Shown here piece after piece: positions 12,449-34,086 of a stretch of DNA of 34,086 nucleotides (position 1 is its first letter; each line of letters opens with the position of its first letter). The notes beneath the pieces were generated by a model. The model was not told the origin of the DNA. It did not search any database and saw only the letters and a program-made list of their open reading frames with translations. The position numbers and the translations under genes are program-made. Source of the DNA: Deltaproteobacteria bacterium (GTDB taxonomy: Bacteria; Myxococcota_A; UBA796; UBA9615); assembly GCA_023954745.1 (NCBI GenBank), contig JAGSHC010000042.1, positions 1-34,086 on the forward strand, written 5' to 3'.

Positions 12449-13015
12449 TCAGCAGTCGTCGTTCCCTGCCACCGAGTTGATGAAGTACCCCTCCACGTAG
12501 GTGTTCGACGGCTGGGCTGCGGCATCGAGTACGTACCAGGAGAACTCGTAGCCGACTCCCCGATCGATCCCGTCCTCGCCGACCCGGAGGAGATGCGTGA
12601 TGGTGCCGCCCGAGAACATGTCCTGCTCCACGGTGAAGTTGAGCAGGGGAGACGCGCCCCCAGTCTCGACATTGTCGTACTGGAGGTAGTAGCGAATCGG
12701 GGCCAGGAGATCGCCGTCGGGGTCACTGATCTCAATGGAGAACCTCAGGTACTCCGTGCCCACGATCTGCGTGTCACACACGTCCACGTTCTCGACGACG
12801 GGCGCCGTGGCGCTCCCCGTCGCGTCATCATCGTCCGCTGCGTCGTCGTCGTTTGCGGCGTCGTCATCGTCAGAGGCTGAGTCGTCGTCGTCCGCGACCG
12901 CACTGTCGTCGTCGTCGTCGTCCGACGCATCGTCGTCGTCGTCGCCTCGGACGGAACAGCCGGTGCTGAAGACGAGGAGCAGCATGAGCAAGGCGCGTGA
13001 GACGGTGGACGACAT
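12449..13015 (-). CDS. Lipoprotein with poly-Asp spacer and a beta-rich C-terminal domain
   Basis: The 188-residue protein has a lipoprotein signal peptide with lipobox FSTGC (Cys20, Ser at +2, so no inner-membrane Asp signal). Directly after it comes an Asp-rich spacer of about 42 residues built from DDDDSA- and DDDDAA-like units. The C-terminal ~120 residues (about 69-188) look beta-rich, with FSIEISDPDGDLLAPIRYY reminiscent of a PKD/Ig-like domain and two Cys (VCDTQ and the terminal NDDC). A comparable spacer occurs in the lipoprotein at the right edge and before the C-terminal tag of the propeller protein. Function unknown; a surface-displayed domain on a charged stalk is inferred. No SD; a TAGGTT lies 6 nt upstream of the ATG. 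Confidence 0.8.
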   Translation of the reverse strand: MSSTVSRALLMLLLVFSTGCSVRGDDDDDASDDDDDDSAVADDDDSASDDDDAANDDDAADDDDATGSATAPVVENVDVCDTQIVGTEYLRFSIEISDPDGDLLAPIRYYLQYDNVETGGASPLLNFTVEQDMFSGGTITHLLRVGEDGIDRGVGYEFSWYVLDAAAQPSNTYVEGYFINSVAGNDDC

Positions 13016-23728: not shown

Positions 23729-24472
23729 ATGCGTTTCAAGGGAAAGACCGCCTTGGTGACCGGAGGGTCCCGAGGCATCGGGGCCGCCACGGCGCGACGG
23801 CTGGCTTCGGAGGGGGCCCAGGTGTGGGTCGGCTATCGAGAGCGCGCGGACAAGGCAGCCGAGGTTGTCGCGAGCATCGAGGAGGAGGGAGGGGTCGCTC
23901 ACTCCGTAGCCATCGACGTCACCTCCTCTGTGTCCGTGCAGTCCGCTGTCGACACGGTCCTCGCCACGTCGGACCGCATCGATGTGCTCGTCAACTCCGC
24001 CGGAATCACCCGCGACGGCCTGCTCCTGGCCATGGACGAGGACCAGTGGTCCGAGGTGCTCGACACCAACGCCGGCGGGAGCTACCGCGTCGTCAAGGTC
24101 GTCGCTCGCACGATGCTGCGGCAGCGCAGTGGGTCCATCGTCCTTCTCTCCTCGGTCGCGGGCCAGAAGGCGGGGCGCGGGCATGCGAACTACGCGGCGA
24201 GCAAGGGCGCAGTGGAGGCGATGACCCGTGCCCTCGCCAACGAGCTCGCTCGCAAGAAGATCCGGGTCAACGCGGTGGCCCCCGGCGTCATCCTCACCGA
24301 CATGTCTGCCCGGGTCCGTGAGGCAGCGGCGGATGTGATCAAGGGGGAGATTCTCCAGAAGCGCTTCGGTGAGCCCGAAGAGGTTGCAGCCGCCATCGCA
24401 TTCCTTGCATCCGACGACGCCTCCTACGTGACAGGTCAGGTCCTGTCCGTGGACGGCGGGTTCAAGATGTAG
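23729..24472 (+). CDS. fabG: 3-oxoacyl-ACP reductase (FabG-type SDR)
   Basis: The 247-residue protein is a classical short-chain dehydrogenase. It has TGGSRGIG (11-18) for NADP(H) binding, NSAG (89-92), Asn114, Ser142 in LLSSVAG, and YAASK (Tyr155, Lys159) completing the catalytic tetrad at FabG spacing. The C-terminus has NAVAPGVILTDM and SYVTGQVLSVDGGFKM, both typical. FabG reduces 3-oxoacyl-ACP to 3-hydroxyacyl-ACP in fatty-acid elongation; a PhaB-like acetoacetyl-CoA reductase or another SDR is the alternative. The SD GGAGG is well placed. The acyl-reductase-like gene begins two nt after the stop, so both are one operon. No fabD, acpP or fabF is nearby, so it may serve a special lipid rather than bulk fatty-acid synthesis. 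Confidence 0.88.
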   Translation: MRFKGKTALVTGGSRGIGAATARRLASEGAQVWVGYRERADKAAEVVASIEEEGGVAHSVAIDVTSSVSVQSAVDTVLATSDRIDVLVNSAGITRDGLLLAMDEDQWSEVLDTNAGGSYRVVKVVARTMLRQRSGSIVLLSSVAGQKAGRGHANYAASKGAVEAMTRALANELARKKIRVNAVAPGVILTDMSARVREAAADVIKGEILQKRFGEPEEVAAAIAFLASDDASYVTGQVLSVDGGFKM

Positions 24473-24474
24473 CC

Positions 24475-25614
24475 GTGGGACGGGTCTTCCTCACTGGGGT
24501 GACGGGGTTCGTGGGGCGCTATGTCGCAGCTCGACTCCTCGCCCGGCCCGACGTCGAGGGCCTCGATGTATTGGTCCGGGCCCGCGACGAGGCTCACGCG
24601 CGCGAGCGCCTGCTCGACTCCATGACCCACGCCGTCTCGCCCGACGACGCCCCGGAGCTCGTGGCGCGGATGACGCCCATCATTGGAGACCTCCGCCGCG
24701 ATCGATTCGGTCTGGACGAAGAGGCCTGGCACGCCCTCGCTGGCCGGACCACTCACGTTCTGCACGGGGCGGCCAACGTGCGCTTCGACCAGGACCTCGA
24801 GGACGCTCGCTCCTACAACGTGTTCGGGACCGAACAGGCGGCGCTGTTGGCGCGAGAGGCCAAGGGCAGGGGAGGGCTCGATCGCTTCGACTGGGTGGGC
24901 ACCGCGTTTGTGGCTGGTCTGCGGCGGGACCGGGTCCTGGAGTCAGAGCTCGAGCACGCAGCCGGCTGGAAGAACCCCTACGAACAGAGCAAGTACGAGG
25001 CGGAGCAGTGGCTACGCGCCCACGCTGCGGATCTCCCCCTCACGGTGTTCCGGCCGTCCATCGTCGTCGGCGACTCCTCCACCGGAGCGACCACGAACTT
25101 CGGGATGCTCTACTGGCCAATTCGACTCTACGCCAAAGGCTGGTGGCGGACTGTCGTGGGCTCGGCGGAGACGCCGGTGGACATCGTGCCGGTGGACTTC
25201 GTGGCCGACGCCATCGACGCGCTCTCCCAGCCGGGGCAGCCGGTGGGCGCGACCTATCACTTGACCTCGGGAGTCGAGGGCGCCGTCACGATCGGGGCCC
25301 TGGCGCAGCTCGCCCAGGACTTCTTCGGCGGGCGTCCTGCGCGCTTCGCGGACCCGGACTTCTTCATGACCTGGGTGCGGCCCGTCGTGGACCTCTTCAT
25401 CTGGGGCCCGAAGCGTCGGGTCCTGAGGCAGGGCGGGCGCTTCTTCATCCCCTACATGTCGGGCAATCCGCTCTTCGACAACACCGAGACCACCGCGGCC
25501 CTGGCGGCGCACGGGGTGGAGGTGCCGCAGGTCCGCGAGTACTTCTCCAACTTGCTGGCCTACGCGAAGAGCACGGACTTCGGGAAGAAGCCGGCGGAGA
25601 CTCCTCCCGCCTGA
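24475..25614 (+). CDS. NAD-binding reductase/epimerase-like extended SDR (thioester/acyl reductase-like)
   Basis: The 379-residue protein starts at GTG 24475, two nt after fabG. It has the nucleotide-binding VFLTGVTGFVGRYVAARLL (4-22) and an extended-SDR core with HGAANVRFDQDLEDARSYNV, FDWVGTAFVAG and NPYEQSKYEAEQWL carrying the catalytic Tyr-x3-Lys. FRPSIVVGDSSTGATTNF follows. These match the NAD_binding_4 (male-sterility) group that includes fatty acyl-CoA reductases and thioester reductases. Such enzymes reduce acyl thioesters to aldehydes or alcohols, for wax or ether lipids for example. The C-terminal ~80 residues are shorter than in full fatty acyl-CoA reductases. The fabG coupling supports a lipid role, but a sugar or steroid epimerase function remains possible. 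Its stop is two nt from that of the convergent multiheme gene. Confidence 0.8.
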   Translation: MGRVFLTGVTGFVGRYVAARLLARPDVEGLDVLVRARDEAHARERLLDSMTHAVSPDDAPELVARMTPIIGDLRRDRFGLDEEAWHALAGRTTHVLHGAANVRFDQDLEDARSYNVFGTEQAALLAREAKGRGGLDRFDWVGTAFVAGLRRDRVLESELEHAAGWKNPYEQSKYEAEQWLRAHAADLPLTVFRPSIVVGDSSTGATTNFGMLYWPIRLYAKGWWRTVVGSAETPVDIVPVDFVADAIDALSQPGQPVGATYHLTSGVEGAVTIGALAQLAQDFFGGRPARFADPDFFMTWVRPVVDLFIWGPKRRVLRQGGRFFIPYMSGNPLFDNTETTAALAAHGVEVPQVREYFSNLLAYAKSTDFGKKPAETPPA

Positions 25615-26990: not shown

Positions 26991-27397
26991 CGAGCGGCTC
27001 CGGCATCGATCCACAGTTGGACCATGCAGCTCTGCGGATCAGACAACGGCGAAGAGGGGGGCATCTGGTAGTTGGCGTCGTCGCTGTGGACGCGCTTCAT
27101 CACGTCACTGCAGGAGGCGTCGCCAGGGACGATCCGCGCCGCGATGTCGAGGGGCTCCACCAGCTGCTCCCAAGCGGTCTCCTCGTCGCCGAGATCGAGG
27201 CCGCCGGCGCTCCCTTCGGTGGCGTGACAGCTCACGCCCGGGGAGGCACAACTCGACACGACCACCGTGCTGTAGACGTTGCTCCAGCTGAGGTCCTGGG
27301 AGAGGGGCGCACAGGCGTCGTCGAGGTCCGCCACGCAGGGGACTTCGGCGGGACACCCCACAACGAGGAGCGAGGCTGCGGCGAGGAAGGCTCTCAC
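26987..27397 (-). CDS. Small lipoprotein, cytochrome-c-like with atypical C-x6-CH motif
   Basis: The 136-residue protein starts at GTG 27397, inside a GTGA overlap with the stop of the propeller gene, and ends in the ATGA overlap with the multiheme gene. Lipobox VVGC (Cys15, Pro at +2) follows a hydrophobic segment. The body has SSCASPGVSCHATEGSAGG, where the normal CxxCH is replaced by Cys, six residues, Cys-His. GGLDLGDEETAWEQLV and QMPPSSPL then resemble the heme-binding (PSCyt1-type) cytochrome c domains of Planctomycetes and Myxococcota, with a Met ligand candidate in QMPP. Two more Cys (ASCSDV, QSCMVQ) may form a disulfide. Whether heme is bound is unclear. Its fixed place between propeller and multiheme genes suggests a shared electron-transfer or surface role. 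Confidence 0.78.
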   Translation of the reverse strand: MRAFLAAASLLVVGCPAEVPCVADLDDACAPLSQDLSWSNVYSTVVVSSCASPGVSCHATEGSAGGLDLGDEETAWEQLVEPLDIAARIVPGDASCSDVMKRVHSDDANYQMPPSSPLSDPQSCMVQLWIDAGAAR

Positions 27398-28689
27398 GAG
27401 CGACGCCGTCGAGCCAGACCGAGACCGAGACCGAGAGCGAGGAGGGAGGCCGCTGCAGGAGTGTCGGTCGCGGGAGCCGAGCAGGCGCAGTCGTCGTCGT
27501 CCCCGGGGTCGTCGTCGTCGGACACCGAGTCGTCGTCGTCGTCGCCCGAAGAGCAGATACGGTCCTCGCGATAGAGATCCAGCACCTGGCAGGCCGCCTC
27601 CCACAGCGGTCCGCAGACCTGGGCGTGGCGGCTGCCCGCGGGGCAGCTCATCTCGGAGACCACGTCGCCGTAGCCCATCAGGTACGCAGGAGCGCCGTCG
27701 ACGATCTGGGCCACGGTGTCGTCCTCGGTGACGTTGAGCGCAAACGTGACGGACCCGTCGACACAGGCCGCCCCCTGGCTCGAGGGCCAGTCCTCCTCGA
27801 TGGCGAAGGTCTCTCCGGCGTCGGCGCTGGCCAAGGGGCTCCCACCCGCGCGGGTCAGGACCGTCTGCGCCCCGCAGACCACTCCGTCGGTCACGCGAAG
27901 AGACCCTCTGTAGACCTCGTCGAAGGTCTCCCCGCCGTCGAGGGTCCGGTAGACGTAATCCTGGGAGGCGTCCTGGGCCCGAACCCAGGCAATCAAGGGG
28001 TCCGTCGGGTGCGCCATGGGGAGCACGAAGTCCTGGAGTGCGCCTCCCTCTGGGAAGAGGAAGTCGTGTGACTCCCAGGTTGCGCCACCATCGAGGGAGC
28101 GCCACACGCTCGCGGAGGTGGGGGAGAGAGACGTCGCCCACGCGACGCCGTCGGGGCCCGGCTCCACCGACAGCACCAGCCCGTCAATGGCCACCGCGTC
28201 CGAGTCATCGAAGTCCGCGCCGTCGAGGGAGTAGAAGAGCCCGTTGTCGACGTCCTGGTCCGCGCTGCCAGCCACGACCGTGCTGCCGTCCGCCAGGACT
28301 GCGAGAGCCGCGACCGTGCGGTTGGTGAGGCCCTGCGTCGCGGTCCAGTCGCAGCCGCCGTCGGTGCTGTAGTAAACATCGACGTCCGGGGAGAAACCCA
28401 GGCCGAGGCTGCGTAGCGTCACCAGAAGGGCGTCGTCGGACCGCGCATAGCGAGGCAGCTGATTGGACGGGTTCATCGGGTCCAGGAGAAGGGCTTCGTG
28501 ACAGGTGAGGCTCCACTCCTCGCCATCGTCGCTTCGGAAGAGCGCGAACGTGGACTCGAAGTCCAGCGGGGTCCCGCCGCCGGGCGGATGGACCATGTCG
28601 ATGCCGTCGGGCTGCAATCCGATGTGCGCCCCCGCGGTGGAGGGAGCCAACAGCAGCATGACCAGCAGAAGGGGGCTCTTTGGGTGCAT
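27394..28689 (-). CDS. Secreted beta-propeller (BNR-like) protein with poly-Asp linker and MYXO-CTERM tag
   Basis: The 431-residue protein has a signal peptide (about 1-21, ending STAGAH). It carries repeats of the BNR/sialidase type with S-x-D-G-G-x-x-W: YYSTDGGCDW, VWRSLDGGATW and YRTLDGGETF, and related strands. This indicates a beta-propeller like photosystem-assembly or VPS10-type domains. Near the C-terminus an Asp-rich linker (DDDDDSVSDDDDPGDDDD) leads to CACSAPATDTP, a hydrophobic helix AAASLLALGLGLGLA and RRRRS. That is a MYXO-CTERM-like anchor, expected to be processed by a myxosortase. It heads the operon; the next two genes overlap by 4 nt each. The ATG at 28689 has no SD; a TAGAAT lies 6 nt upstream. 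Function is a surface protein, possibly a scaffold for the multiheme protein. Confidence 0.82.
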   Translation of the reverse strand: MHPKSPLLLVMLLLAPSTAGAHIGLQPDGIDMVHPPGGGTPLDFESTFALFRSDDGEEWSLTCHEALLLDPMNPSNQLPRYARSDDALLVTLRSLGLGFSPDVDVYYSTDGGCDWTATQGLTNRTVAALAVLADGSTVVAGSADQDVDNGLFYSLDGADFDDSDAVAIDGLVLSVEPGPDGVAWATSLSPTSASVWRSLDGGATWESHDFLFPEGGALQDFVLPMAHPTDPLIAWVRAQDASQDYVYRTLDGGETFDEVYRGSLRVTDGVVCGAQTVLTRAGGSPLASADAGETFAIEEDWPSSQGAACVDGSVTFALNVTEDDTVAQIVDGAPAYLMGYGDVVSEMSCPAGSRHAQVCGPLWEAACQVLDLYREDRICSSGDDDDDSVSDDDDPGDDDDCACSAPATDTPAAASLLALGLGLGLARRRRS

Positions 28690-28701: not shown

Positions 28702-29097
28702 AACCGCTTCTCAGAAAAAGTAGGGCCTCCTGCTGGCGCCTGCTCTGACCGCTTCGTACAGAACGCCGCGACACGCGACCGCGAATGGAGCGTGAGTCTG
28801 CTCAAGAACCGGGCCATGCCGGCCGATGAGGGGTGCCCAGCGACCCCCGCCTGGAGCCATCAGTGACCGACCGCGGCAACCTCCTCGGATTCCTCCTCGT
28901 GGGCGGAATACGCTCCATGTCCCGCTCCGTCGTGGGCGGCAGCTGCCGCATGATGGAGGTTGAGTGCGAGCTCCCCGACAAGCTCAATTGAGCCACTGCC
29001 TGCAGGACCTCGGTCCTTCGCTGGGAGAGGCGCCCCGGGCGCGTGCGTGCGGTAGACTCGCGCCGCCTCGGGGCTGGCCCGTCTCGCGGAGAACCTG
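28702..29097. other. Intergenic region between the cytochrome and LolA-like operons, about 400 bp
   Basis: No convincing gene is visible; short frames here lack start signals and codon pattern. The right part carries a palindrome AGGACC-TC-GGTCCT (29004-29017) and a second, GCGCCC-C-GGGCGC (29030-29042). TAGACT (29053-29058) is a -10 candidate for the LolA-like gene, and the palindromes sit where an operator would. GGAGA (29088-29092) is that gene's SD. The left part (28702-29000) shows nothing recognisable. Confidence 0.4.
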
Positions 29098-29883
29098 ATG
29101 CATATTCGACTCGCCTTCCTTTGCGTCCTGCTGTTCGCTCTCCTTGGACCCGCTCCCGCTTGGGGCGGCGATGGACTCGCCGTGATGAAGCGGGTCGACG
29201 GCGCGATGCGCAGCCAGGGTGAGGAGATGACGGTCCAGATGCAGCTCGCGAACGCGGCGGGCAGCACCGAGACCCGCACGTTCAAGATGTGGACCCGGTC
29301 TCCGGTCGGGAAGCCAGCGAAGACGCTGATCCGCTTCGAGTCACCGGCGAGCATCGCCCGGACGGCGCTTCTCACCGTGACGCGCACGGGCGGGGGTCAG
29401 GACAACTGGCTCTACGTGCCCGCCCTTGGTCAGACGCGCCGCGTCGCTCCCCAGGACCGAAGCGAGTCCTTCGTCCAGAGCGACTTCACCATCGAGGACC
29501 TCACGGTCACCATCGACGCGGAGAACCGGGTCTACACGGTGCTTGGCCAGGTGGACTGCGGAGGTCGGGCCTGCACCCAGGTGGAAGACAAGCCGGCGAA
29601 TGATGCGGCGGCGAAGCAGAGTGGCTACGGCCGCGTCGTTCTCTACATCGACGATGAGCGAGCCGTGGTGCATCGGGTGGACTTCTACGACAAGAGCGAC
29701 GCTCTGTTGAAGGTGCTCCAGGCCGACGGCCTGGTGCAGGTAGGGGACAACTGGCGATTCGATCGCGCCGTCGTGACCAACGTGCAGAAGGGGAGCCGAA
29801 CGGTGATGACGGTGATCTCCCGGGCGCACGGAGCCTCTGTGGATGACTCCATCTTCTCGGCCTCGAGCCTCGATGCGCTCTGA
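29098..29883 (+). CDS. LolA-like outer-membrane lipoprotein-sorting-type protein (COG2834/PF17131 type)
   Basis: The 261-residue protein has a signal peptide (about 1-23, ending PAWGGD) and a LolA-like half-barrel core. The PF17131-like block is visible as TLIRFESPASIARTALL, then NWLYVPALGQTRRVAP and SESFVQSDFTIEDLTV, matching the usual WLYxPxxxxxRRI...SFxGSDFsyeDL pattern. These periplasmic proteins are typically encoded next to RND/MMPL-type exporters and are thought to carry hydrophobic molecules or lipoproteins toward the outer membrane. Here an RND-like protein is the third gene and a barrel the second, giving a plausible periplasm-spanning set. The ATG at 29098 has a reasonable SD. It overlaps the barrel gene by 11 nt. 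Confidence 0.88.
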   Translation: MHIRLAFLCVLLFALLGPAPAWGGDGLAVMKRVDGAMRSQGEEMTVQMQLANAAGSTETRTFKMWTRSPVGKPAKTLIRFESPASIARTALLTVTRTGGGQDNWLYVPALGQTRRVAPQDRSESFVQSDFTIEDLTVTIDAENRVYTVLGQVDCGGRACTQVEDKPANDAAAKQSGYGRVVLYIDDERAVVHRVDFYDKSDALLKVLQADGLVQVGDNWRFDRAVVTNVQKGSRTVMTVISRAHGASVDDSIFSASSLDAL

Positions 29884-31660
29884 GACGGCGGCGGCGAGCT
29901 GGCTCGCGCTGAGTCTGGGGGTCGCGCTCGTGATCTCGCCAGCGATGGCAGACGAGGGGCCGCAGGATGAGCCCACTGCCGAGGAGGAGGCTGCTCCCGA
30001 GGAGGAGGCCACTCCCGGGGAGGAGGCCACTCCCGAAGAGGACGAAGAGGACGAAGAGCCTGCCCCCGAGGAGGACGAAGAGCCTGCGCCCGAAGAGGCC
30101 CTCCCGCCCGCTCCGCCCGTGCCGGACGTGCCCGGCCTCCCGCCGCTCCCCCCCCTGGAGCCGCTCGAGTCGGCGCCCCCGGTCCCTGACGTGGGCACTC
30201 CGGGGCCAATCATCCCCACCGCCCCCATCGTCATGCCTCCACTGCCGGAGGTCCGTCTCGGCGGGTTCATTGCGTTTGACTGGCAGCCCTACCTGATCGA
30301 GGTCCCCGGGGCCGTCGATTCGGTGGCTCAGCTCCGCGTGGCCCCGCGACTGGAGGCCCGATACCAGTTCCTCCGCGCAGTCGCCGAGATCGAGTACCGC
30401 CATGACTTCGTGGATTCTGGCCGCAACCGACTGATCGTCCGCGAGGCCTTTGCTGGCTTGCGGTGGAAGGGCTTGCGCCTGGAGGCCGGGGCCCTGCTCC
30501 CACGGTGGGGGAAGATGGACGTGCAGTCGCCGACCGACAACGTCATCGCCCACGACTACGAGGACCTCTTCTTCTCCGAGCCTCTTCCGGTTCCCGGGAT
30601 TCTCTTGGGCTTTGCGCGGGGCCCCATCGCGGTGGAGGCCCTCGTGCTGCCCGCGTTTCGGCCTTCCCGGTTCCGCGGTGGCTCGGTCTCCCGCTGGGAC
30701 ATCACTCGGTTCCTCCCCAGCGAGCAGGAGATCCCGATCCTGTTCGACACGGCCACCGTGCAAAACAACTACGGCTCGTTCCAGCCGTCGGTGATGGACG
30801 GCGAGGCGCCCCTGGGGCGCGGGATCGAGGTCGGGGGTCGGGTCGACCTGAGCCTGCCCGTCGTCGACATCGGGGTGTCGTTCCTGGCCACGCGTGATCG
30901 ACTCCCGAGCTACACGGCCTACCGCACCCTGAACTCGGACGACGCGGACGGCGACGGGACCCCTGACGTCCTGGTGTCCGGGGTCGCCGACCTGGAGATC
31001 ACCCCGCACCACCGGCGCATCTACGTGCCCGGCGTGGACATCGCCGCGGCCCTCGGCCCGGTGGTGGTGAAGGGCGAGGCGGCCTTCTTCGCCACAGAGG
31101 ACCCCTCCCGCGCGTCGTGTTTTGTGGACGATCCCTACGTCAAGTACGCCTTTGGCGCCGAGCTGGTGCTGGCGAACCTCGTGGGGGACTTCGATCTGGC
31201 GCTGCGCGCGCAGTACAACGGGGACGTGGCGCTCCCTGCGGGGAACAGCGACGGGCCAGACCGCTTCGGCGCCGTCGACTTCTTCTACCCCGATGGAGGC
31301 GAACGCACGAACTACGAGCGTGGCTGCCTCGGAGTTTCCTACTCCGACGAGCAGGAAGCCCCCCTCCCCACCGACTACGCCACGGGCTTCTCGGGCACGC
31401 CGGAGCAGCGCCATCCCTACCAGCACGGATTCTTCTGGAACGTGAACATGGCCTTCACCCGGTCGGTCGTCCTCGACCTGCGTGGCTTCGTCGATACCGC
31501 AGGCGACGCGCTCCTCATGCCGAAGCTCCAGGTCCTGCTCCTGGACCGACTCAACCTCACAGCCGGGGCGACCCTCATGCTCGCGACCGGCGAGGACACG
31601 ATCTTCGCCGCCTACGGGAAGAACCATCGCGTCGAGCTGGGTGTTCGCTACGACTTCTGA
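29873..31660 (+). CDS. Outer-membrane beta-barrel protein (DUF1302-like) with acidic/Pro-rich N-terminal region
   Basis: From ATG 29873 the protein has 595 residues and a signal peptide (MRSETAAASW to about residue 27, ending PAMADE). Residues about 28-75 are nearly all Glu, Pro, Ala and Asp, and 78-125 are Pro-rich; such a disordered segment could cross the periplasm or bind peptidoglycan. The remaining ~460 residues are amphipathic strands ending in RVELGVRYDF, a C-terminal Phe typical of outer-membrane barrels recognised by BamA. One loop contains SDDADGDGTPDV, a TSP3/EF-hand-like Ca2+ site. The class recalls DUF1302/DUF1329-type porins linked to RND exporters. It overlaps the LolA-like gene by 11 nt and the RND gene by 20 nt, so the three are tightly coupled. 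A role as the outer-membrane channel or receptor is inferred. Confidence 0.82.
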   Translation: MRSETAAASWLALSLGVALVISPAMADEGPQDEPTAEEEAAPEEEATPGEEATPEEDEEDEEPAPEEDEEPAPEEALPPAPPVPDVPGLPPLPPLEPLESAPPVPDVGTPGPIIPTAPIVMPPLPEVRLGGFIAFDWQPYLIEVPGAVDSVAQLRVAPRLEARYQFLRAVAEIEYRHDFVDSGRNRLIVREAFAGLRWKGLRLEAGALLPRWGKMDVQSPTDNVIAHDYEDLFFSEPLPVPGILLGFARGPIAVEALVLPAFRPSRFRGGSVSRWDITRFLPSEQEIPILFDTATVQNNYGSFQPSVMDGEAPLGRGIEVGGRVDLSLPVVDIGVSFLATRDRLPSYTAYRTLNSDDADGDGTPDVLVSGVADLEITPHHRRIYVPGVDIAAALGPVVVKGEAAFFATEDPSRASCFVDDPYVKYAFGAELVLANLVGDFDLALRAQYNGDVALPAGNSDGPDRFGAVDFFYPDGGERTNYERGCLGVSYSDEQEAPLPTDYATGFSGTPEQRHPYQHGFFWNVNMAFTRSVVLDLRGFVDTAGDALLMPKLQVLLLDRLNLTAGATLMLATGEDTIFAAYGKNHRVELGVRYDF

Positions 31661-33761
31661 GCCGCTGTCGAAGGGCCCGACCATCCTGCTCGCCCTGCTC
31701 TGCCTGGCGGCGGCGGCCGGGATTCCGCGGCTCGTGGTGGACCCCGAGGCTCCGTTCCGTGGCGATCCCGAGTCCGCCTTCGAGCGCACCGACCGGGCGT
31801 TACGTGAGGGGACCGGCGGAGACGATGTCGTGGCGGTCGTGCTCTGGGACCGGCGTGGCCGCTTCGAGTCCGCGGGCCTCGCAGCCGTGGACGCGGTGCA
31901 CGCCGCGCTCCTCTCCAAGCCGGCTCTGCTCCGAAGCCGTTCGTTCACCAGGGCACCGCTGCTCGTCTCCCACGAGGGAGTACTCACGGCAGCCACTCCG
32001 CTGCACCCCCTCCCGGCAGGCCCGGAGCTGGTCGATGCGTTCGATCAGGTCCTCGCCGATCCTTTCGCGGCCGGGACCCTCGTCACGCCCGACGGCTCCA
32101 TGGCGATGCTTCCCTCCTGGGTGCGAAGAGAGTCCGTCCCATCCGTCCTCGTGGGCATCGCAAGCTCGGCGCTTCAAGACGCGGACGTGCGCGCGGCCCC
32201 GGAGGGAGCGGCCTGTAAGCAGGCGGTGGATCAGGGACGGCTCGCAGTCGTCCTGGGCGAGAGCGCCGGGCCCGCCGACGTCGAGGTGGCCCGCCGCCTG
32301 ACGAACCTCGCGACCTCAGGCAACAGCCTCGCGAAGGACTGGCTCAGCGCCGCGGAGCGCCAGGCCGCGGACCCGGACCAGGCGGCCCTCGATGCGGCTA
32401 GGGAGGCCCTCGATTCGGTGTCCCTCCCCGAGGGCGTGACGGGGGTCGTGCTCGGCGAAGGCGCGGTGCAGGAGACGCTCGCCGCCCGGTTCCCCATCGC
32501 TGTTGCCCTCGCGCTCCTGGGCGTTCTCGCGGGAGTGGGCCTGGTGACGCGTCGCGAAGGTGGCGCGCTCGCGACACGCGCGGTCGTGTCGGGGGTGTGC
32601 GCCGCCGGCGCCGTGGCCGGTGGAATGGGCTGGGTCGGCGCCCCCCTGCACTCGTTCACGGCGCTGGCCCCGCTCTGCGCGGCCCTCGTGGCGGGTCTTG
32701 CGTCGGTTCGCGCGGTGTCGCCGGTGCACATCCTCGGCGCGGTTGCCCCGCTCTTGGCCCTCGCGGTGGGGGGGCGGGTGACTCCGGGCCTGGCTCCCGC
32801 GTTGCTTCTGCTCACCACGACGGTGCTCGCCTCCAACGCCCTCGCCCCCCGCGAGACGGCAGCAGGCCCTGTGCCGCCACGACGCGTCGTGCTGGTCGGC
32901 GCGGCCCTGGTCCTCCTCTGCGCGGCCTCCATGGCCCCCCGTCCCCTCGGGCTGGATCCGAGCGGACAGATTGGCCGACAGCACCCACTGGGCGCGGCCA
33001 TGCACGCCCTGGACCATCACGGGATGGCCACCCCCGCCCAGATCGCCCTGGTGGGTGACGGGCCCCGGGCTCTGGCAGCACCGGACAGGTTGCGCGCCCT
33101 TCGGGGCGCCCAGGACCGCCTGGAGGCCCACGAGAGCGTCTCGGGCACCGTCTCTTGGGCGGACTTCGTGCGCGCGCTGCACGGCGCGGTCTCTGGCGCC
33201 GAAGGCCTCCCAACCGATCCCGCGCTGGTGGACCAGTACCTTCTGCTCTTCGGGCGCCCCGAGGACGTTCGGCCCCTCGTGGCTGCCGACCTTGGAGTGG
33301 GGGGCGGTGTGTTGCGCATGGCCGCAGGGGAGGGGGCCCACCTCGGGCCCCTGGCCGGCGAGGTCAGCGACGGAGTGATGGTGGTCGGGGGGGCGGCCCG
33401 CGTGTCCGGGGCCGGACATCGCCTCGCGCGATCCACCCTTGGGGCCGGAGGGTTGGGCCTACTCATCGGAGTCGTGCTGCTCGGCATGAGCCGTCGCGAA
33501 GGGGTGGTCCTGGGCCTGGCCGCGGGAGCGGTGGCGATGGCAGTGACGACGGCCTGGTCAGGAGCAGTGGGGTTCGAGGCGCTCCTCGCCGCCGGGGTCA
33601 TCTGGGCCCTCGCCGCGACATCCCCACACCGGATGGCTCTGGCCGGCCTGTTCGGGGTGCTGGCGCTGGCGACCCCGGTGGTGAGCGTCGCGGCGCTGGC
33701 CGTTGGAGTGGCGTCGGGAGCGGCCGTCACGAGCCTTCTGGGGCGCTGGACGAACCGGTGA
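31641..33761 (+). CDS. RND/MMPL-type 12-TM membrane protein, apparently lacking the proton-relay acids
   Basis: From GTG 31641 the protein has 706 residues. The pattern is TM1 (about 14-29), a ~250-residue periplasmic domain, TM2-TM6 (about 284-405), TM7 (about 416-433), a second, shorter periplasmic domain, and TM8-TM12 (about 600-700). This 1+5+1+5 order is that of RND exporters (COG1033/MMPL). TM4 aligns with the family's GxPLxxxTALxP segment (GAPLHSFTALAPL, near 333), but the usual GVDY that follows is replaced by GLASVRA, and the matching second-half segment also lacks Asp. The loops are shorter than in most RND pumps. It completes the operon with the LolA-like and barrel genes. Either it uses another energy source or it is a non-transporting scaffold. 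The GTG start, 20 nt inside the barrel gene, is the first start before TM1. Confidence 0.75.
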   Translation: MFATTSEPLSKGPTILLALLCLAAAAGIPRLVVDPEAPFRGDPESAFERTDRALREGTGGDDVVAVVLWDRRGRFESAGLAAVDAVHAALLSKPALLRSRSFTRAPLLVSHEGVLTAATPLHPLPAGPELVDAFDQVLADPFAAGTLVTPDGSMAMLPSWVRRESVPSVLVGIASSALQDADVRAAPEGAACKQAVDQGRLAVVLGESAGPADVEVARRLTNLATSGNSLAKDWLSAAERQAADPDQAALDAAREALDSVSLPEGVTGVVLGEGAVQETLAARFPIAVALALLGVLAGVGLVTRREGGALATRAVVSGVCAAGAVAGGMGWVGAPLHSFTALAPLCAALVAGLASVRAVSPVHILGAVAPLLALAVGGRVTPGLAPALLLLTTTVLASNALAPRETAAGPVPPRRVVLVGAALVLLCAASMAPRPLGLDPSGQIGRQHPLGAAMHALDHHGMATPAQIALVGDGPRALAAPDRLRALRGAQDRLEAHESVSGTVSWADFVRALHGAVSGAEGLPTDPALVDQYLLLFGRPEDVRPLVAADLGVGGGVLRMAAGEGAHLGPLAGEVSDGVMVVGGAARVSGAGHRLARSTLGAGGLGLLIGVVLLGMSRREGVVLGLAAGAVAMAVTTAWSGAVGFEALLAAGVIWALAATSPHRMALAGLFGVLALATPVVSVAALAVGVASGAAVTSLLGRWTNR

Positions 33762-33883: not shown

Positions 33884-34086
33884 ATGCTGAACAAGAACAA
33901 CTTCTTTCTTACGCTGATGCTGCTGCTCGGAACCGCCATGGTCGGAACCGGTTGCCCCTTCACCGGTGGTGACGACGACGACTCCGCTGGCGACGACGAC
34001 GACTCCGCTGGCGACGACGACGACTCCGCTGGCGACGACGACGACTCCGCTGGCGACGACGACGACTCGGGCCCGGACCCGCTCGT
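33884..34086 (+). CDS. Lipoprotein with DDDDSAG tandem repeats, C-terminus cut by window edge
   Basis: The ATG at 33884 has AGGAG six nt upstream; the in-frame ATG at 33878 abuts the SD and is less likely. The signal peptide core FFLTLMLLLGTAMV ends in lipobox VGTGC (Cys24, Pro at +2). After FTGG the protein enters four perfect DDDDSAG repeats and a fifth partial unit, then GPDP, where the window ends. The rest, presumably a folded surface domain, is missing. It parallels the poly-Asp lipoprotein at 12449-13015 but is more regular. Role unknown. Confidence 0.8.
   Translation, partial: MLNKNNFFLTLMLLLGTAMVGTGCPFTGGDDDDSAGDDDDSAGDDDDSAGDDDDSAGDDDDSGPDPL
33971..34069 (+). repeat. Perfect 21-bp in-frame tandem repeat encoding DDDDSAG
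   Basis: Four identical 21-bp units (33971-33991, 33992-34012, 34013-34033, 34034-34054) are followed by a 15-bp partial unit. Every Asp uses GAC. Identity at third positions points to recent expansion by slippage or recombination; unit length keeps the frame, so only protein length would vary. Confidence 0.9.

Follow-up and report, generated by a model that had tools for sequence, protein, structure and literature searches.

Organization of the locus

The window, by which we mean the whole 34,086-nucleotide stretch of DNA analysed here (contig JAGSHC010000042.1 of assembly GCA_023954745.1), carries three genes on the same, forward strand that are tied together by overlaps of 11 nt (29873–29883) and 20 nt (31641–31660), exactly as the initial annotation had described. 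The first (29098–29883, +) encodes a putative periplasmic carrier-like protein of 261 amino acids, with a signal-like hydrophobic stretch at its N-terminus and a clear match to the LolA_like family PF17131 (E 1.1e-44; 152.7 bits, for a curated cut-off of 30). The second (29873–31660, +) encodes a predicted outer-membrane beta-barrel of 595 amino acids ending in Phe, in which a Pro/Glu-rich arm of 98 residues follows the signal. The third (31641–33761, +), whose GTG start was picked from the 20-nt overlap, encodes an RND-fold protein of 706 amino acids without relay acids.

The lolA–barrel–rnd order is retained in genomes G000, G001, G002 and G006. The operon of G005 is split across two contig ends, in an arrangement compatible with this order, approximately 16 kb separate the barrel and rnd genes in G003, and the locus of G004 is incomplete for this comparison. 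Orthologues of the LolA_like protein were found in G001, G002, G005 and G006, and those of the barrel in the same four genomes and in G003.

The assignment of the second protein as a barrel relies on its position in the operon, its orthologues and a structural model (m5e3363972b9f; pLDDT 73.9, with a weak segment at residues 332–388) whose Foldseek matches are porin- and AlgE-like. Its sole Pfam match is DUF3530, below the cut-off (E 0.041), and the Pfam scan returned no match to DUF1302 (PF06980). A distant relative (L101:5518-7236), with which the window barrel shares a WG..D...P motif, reaches 21.9 bits against DUF1302, under the cut-off of 23.2. The acidic, proline-rich arm (residues 27–124; 29951–30244, +) was also correctly recognized from the sequence: its 98 residues include 31 Asp/Glu and 29 Pro. 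This arm is not present in the G006 orthologue.

Homology and predicted fold of the third protein

The RND-fold protein has no match in Pfam, in NCBIfam or among PDB sequences at E-values up to 1. Nevertheless, although it is not recognized as MMPL by direct Pfam search, comparison of profiles clearly places it among the homologues of MMPL-type RND proteins: hhalign, run with a profile of five orthologues against one built from 19 further class RNDs, gave a probability of 99.9 (E 3.8e-37, 533 columns). The AlphaFold2 model (pLDDT 85.7, pTM 0.86; 30 input sequences) is not independent of the RND alignment, because 23 of its sequences are other RNDs. It predicts TM1 at residues 11–25, TM2–6 at 273–401, TM7 at 414–431 and TM8–12 at 584–705, that is, 12 helices and two periplasmic domains, in agreement with the 1+5+1+5 layout put forward initially. 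The best structural matches are MmpL4 and MmpL5 (MmpL5 8zkp_A: Z 19.4, rmsd 5.9, 566 residues aligned), at 12% identity. By profile comparison and predicted fold, the protein is thus a 12-helix RND homologue, which we file as RND-derived rather than as a proton antiporter because no relay acid was found in TM4 or TM10.

The periplasmic loops had been described as short, which proved wrong: loop 1 spans approximately 240 residues, versus approximately 174 in L002, a paralogue from the same genome (loop 2: approx. 152 versus 191). Loop 1 holds a predicted helical insert (about residues 166–262; 32136–32426, +) that appears specific to this family; indeed, when an insert profile was compared with the 1757 ORFs of the gathered loci, matches were confined to the RND-fold family, the next best having an E-value of 0.57. 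Conserved periplasmic motifs, such as LVEQYLLLFGRP, are also found in the family.

Loss of relay acids and linkers

RND proteins are generally regarded as proton-driven. Relay positions were read from an alignment (A4) of seven family rows and 23 other RND rows of the class, a subset of 34 RND ORFs that excludes near-duplicates and sequences that aligned poorly or had long extensions. Two orthologues are cut by contig ends, so that G001 covers neither TM4 nor TM10 and G004 covers TM10 only. The TM4 relay column holds Asp in 19 of the 23 other RNDs and Ala354 in the window protein, and none of the five family rows covering it has an acid (A, L, L, L, A). At TM10 (column pair 882/883), Asp occurs in 23/23 other RNDs, the window protein has a gap, and five of six family rows have no acid; the exception is G002, with a Glu in two alignments. 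As a hydrophilic stretch comes after it, this Glu may lie at the cytosolic end of the helix, but its presence means that the relay loss is not uniform in the family. The claim that TM4 and TM10 of the window protein have no acid is consequently upheld at the relay columns, where alignment with RND relatives places none. Among the family rows that cover the helices, the loss is complete for TM4 and holds for TM10 save in G002.

According to model and alignment, both helices are also shortened, TM4 to 13 residues (342–354; 32664–32702, +) and TM10 to 14 (645–658; 33573–33614, +), and the modelled links past them measure approximately six residues each. The amphipathic linkers (HxxxRxRE...GRAI..T) that other RNDs carry after TM4 and TM10 are missing from the RND-fold family. 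Glu646, at the start of TM10, is the sole acid within the modelled TM4 and TM10, and is not common to the aligned orthologues. In or near the helices, Asp, Glu or His is shared by at least three of five orthologues at four positions only (277, 278, 620 and 663), all helix ends.

Single losses are found elsewhere: four of the 23 other class RNDs, and also the barrel-linked L100 and L101, have no TM4 acid and keep that of TM10. Therefore, it is the loss of both acids that, in sequence terms and among the proteins compared, is the mark of the RND-fold family. As a separate observation, L015, L108, L011 and L055 form a distinct class RND subfamily in which Ser or Cys replaces the TM4 acid and the TM10 VDD motif is intact.

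Distribution and conservation

When 377 genomes from the phylum were searched with the family profile (E up to 1e-25), members were detected in seven, namely all six genomes of the window's family (its own included) and one from a sister family in the same order. A search of 71 genomes of the class returned the identical seven as strongest matches; the others at E up to 1e-10 were weak and partial and, where aligned, turned out to be ordinary RNDs. A contig scan with a single RND-fold sequence gave no matches, and one with the family alignment gave four loci; L118, the RND part of which lies at a contig end, was left out.

The pattern of conservation is inverted relative to other RNDs. For the latter, 169 of 171 pairs are more alike in the membrane part than in the periplasmic part, whereas in the RND-fold family this is so in three of ten pairs, each involving G006, and the four full-length members from the window's family show the reverse in 6/6 pairs (membrane higher in 0/6). 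By region, identity in the RND-fold family is lowest in TM4–6 (0.24) and highest in PD2 (0.39), whereas in class RNDs it is TM8–12 that scores highest (0.38–0.39). These membrane values are to be read with caution, as helices rich in Ala, Leu and Gly align poorly and apparent identity may be lowered.

Comparison with known systems

Comparable gene sets have been described. In AmeABCD of Castellaniella defragrans, a DUF1302 outer-membrane protein, a LolA-superfamily periplasmic protein and an RND protein are encoded together and handle a hydrophobic cargo (PMC6394551). The grouping of barrel, LolA-type and RND genes is thus shared with the window operon, but AmeB is a DUF1329 protein, the gene order is different and AmeABCD includes an extra COG4447 protein, AmeC (PMC6394551). 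We found no COG4447 component, a feature of AmeABCD-type exporters, in the window operon.

The BstABC sterol system and HpnN likewise combine an RND inner-membrane protein with periplasmic and outer-membrane partners in a proposed lipid conduit; BstA is assigned to MMPL (pfam03176; PMC10942540), unlike the window protein, which has no such Pfam match. The aryl polyene cluster of Escherichia coli places a LolA-like carrier, ApeL, and an RND protein, ApeM, alongside a ketoreductase (PMC8253772). Read by eye, the relay of ApeM is only partial, with Asp in TM4 (SADYT) and Asn in TM10 (GINYT), which recalls the window protein. However, ApeM keeps the TM4 Asp and has a Pfam MMPL match, and a LolB-like protein, ApeN, adjoins it, unlike in the window operon. 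The Tyr–Asp relay described for MmpL3 (PMC10171966) is absent from the window RND-fold protein.

The plan is thus known from AmeABCD, BstABC and ApeL/ApeM, and the window system appears to be set apart by its relay loss. Among the titles and abstract openings of open-access literature that we searched, no RND protein without both relay acids was described beside a LolA-like protein.

Proposed role and alternatives

The initial annotation had suggested either an exporter-like complex moving its cargo without standard proton coupling or a scaffold derived from a pump. As the absence of the relay is real and common to the clade, the lack of standard proton coupling is supported at the sequence level. 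Between the two forms of the proposal, the scaffold fits better than the exporter, because linkers were deleted along with the acids and because conservation has shifted from the membrane to the periplasm. Sequence and prediction together show the homology and the fold, the disappearance of both acids and linkers, the inversion of conservation and the linkage in an operon; that the RND-fold protein acts, with the LolA_like protein and the barrel, as a pump-derived, non-energised periplasmic bridge for hydrophobic cargo is, in our estimate, an even call.

Under this model, the ancestor would have been an MMPL/HAE3-type transporter whose membrane engine was dismantled (acids and linkers gone, TM4 and TM10 short), while its periplasmic halves were retained, one of them with the helical insert, as alignment and model show. 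The protein would then serve as a non-energised platform in the inner membrane, taking a hydrophobic molecule from the outer face of that membrane; the periplasmic domains would pass this cargo on to the LolA_like protein, for delivery to the DUF1302-like barrel. Movement could follow a concentration gradient or be directed toward a sink, in either direction. We regard as plausible, if falling somewhat short of an even chance, the fuller proposal that an RND pseudo-transporter has become fixed in two families of one order, its engine removed and its periplasmic domains kept and extended, to form with its two partners a passive lipid bridge, inner-to-outer or the reverse. If this is true, a clade-wide RND family that has lost relay and linkers and is still constrained within an envelope operon would make it possible to separate the role of the periplasmic domains from that of the proton engine, and to ask about passive lipid crossing of the periplasm via such a protein.

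Alternatively, the protein could still be an energised exporter, drawing on an unrecognized ion site or on energy supplied by a second protein such as the product of a neighbouring small gene. The G002 Glu near the TM10 position and the ATP-driven help by ApeG proposed for ApeM (PMC8253772) point that way, as does a small Cys-containing protein conserved in G001, G002 and G005, where its intact gene lies directly upstream of lolA. However, this gene is reduced in the window to an apparent 24-residue remnant (28914–28985, +; tblastn 54% over 24 aa, E 1e-4), the operon holds no ATPase, and the shared Asp, Glu or His residues are found at helix ends only, so that we judge an energised exporter unlikely. 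A small protein encoded upstream of rnd in G003 was considered as a homologue of that of G001, G002 and G005, and was rejected by tblastn.

As in mixed RND pumps such as MdtBC, the window protein could be the non-catalytic protomer of a mixed complex in which an intact RND paralogue of the same cell provides proton coupling. Its own genome does encode MMPL-type paralogues with relay acids, namely L002 (IGVGD, AANDT) and L109, and also L108, with the TM10 acid only. Such a partnership likewise seems improbable to us: the operon is without any RND paralogue, the identity of the window protein to other class RNDs is just approximately 16–22%, and deletion of whole linkers exceeds what is expected of a silent protomer.

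That the rnd gene is decaying and functionless, an idea suggested by its fast evolution, is a good deal less probable. Between G000 and G001, the RND-fold protein is 44% identical (N part, 172 codons), whereas LolA, the barrel and an acid-intact RND paralogue reach 77%, 67% and 74%, respectively; the corresponding NG86 dN/dS values, calculated at a dS (0.7 to 1.1) close to saturation, are 0.54, 0.17, 0.31 and 0.29. A ratio near 0.5 means that the gene is still constrained. Moreover, its reading frame is full-length in five genomes and partial at contig ends in two, spanning two families, with no internal stop in 7/7 genomes, and both the operon linkage and the conserved periplasmic motifs argue against decay. 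Finally, the sequence is very divergent and its local alignment in TM10 is gapped, but the two alignments made with MAFFT are concordant with hhalign and with the helix map, and the helix cores have no conserved acid in any register, which makes misaligned acids in an ordinary proton-driven exporter the least probable reading of all.

Neighbouring genes and putative cargo

For a passive bridge of the kind proposed above, the neighbouring genes provide a possible indication of cargo. A FabG-like ketoreductase (23729–24472, +) and a thioester-reductase/NAD_binding_4 protein (24475–25614, +; PF07993, E 5.9e-57; MxaA reductase in the PDB, E 6.4e-25) are conserved neighbours and possible cargo enzymes. 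In G002, six tightly spaced genes on the same strand encode the FabG-like protein, the reductase, the small protein, LolA, the barrel and the RND-fold protein. In G000 and G001, too, the enzyme pair lies close to the operon; it was not seen in the G006 stretch read. A broad NAD_binding_4 search of 10 genomes placed the reductase on the operon contig in G000, G001 and G002. Given this synteny in three genomes, the cargo might be an acyl or polyketide-type lipid.

Divergent from the operon lies a gene for a BNR/Sortilin-like secreted protein (27397–28689, −), syntenic in G001, with what we take to be a MYXO-CTERM-like tail. It was considered as a counterpart of AmeC and rejected, owing to this divergent orientation and because no counterpart of the gene turned up in the G002 stretch.

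Downstream of the G006 operon, at a distance of approximately 1.7 kb, another ORF (L021:12291-14594, on G006:C149) begins with a lipoprotein-like signal, has no Pfam match and resembles RND periplasmic domains in its C-terminal part (phmmer 9e-9 to an RND), without membrane helices. At the contig end of the window (33970–34070), tandem units encode DDDDSAG repeats, and similar DDDD runs occur in the proteins encoded at 12452–13015 and 27397–28689.
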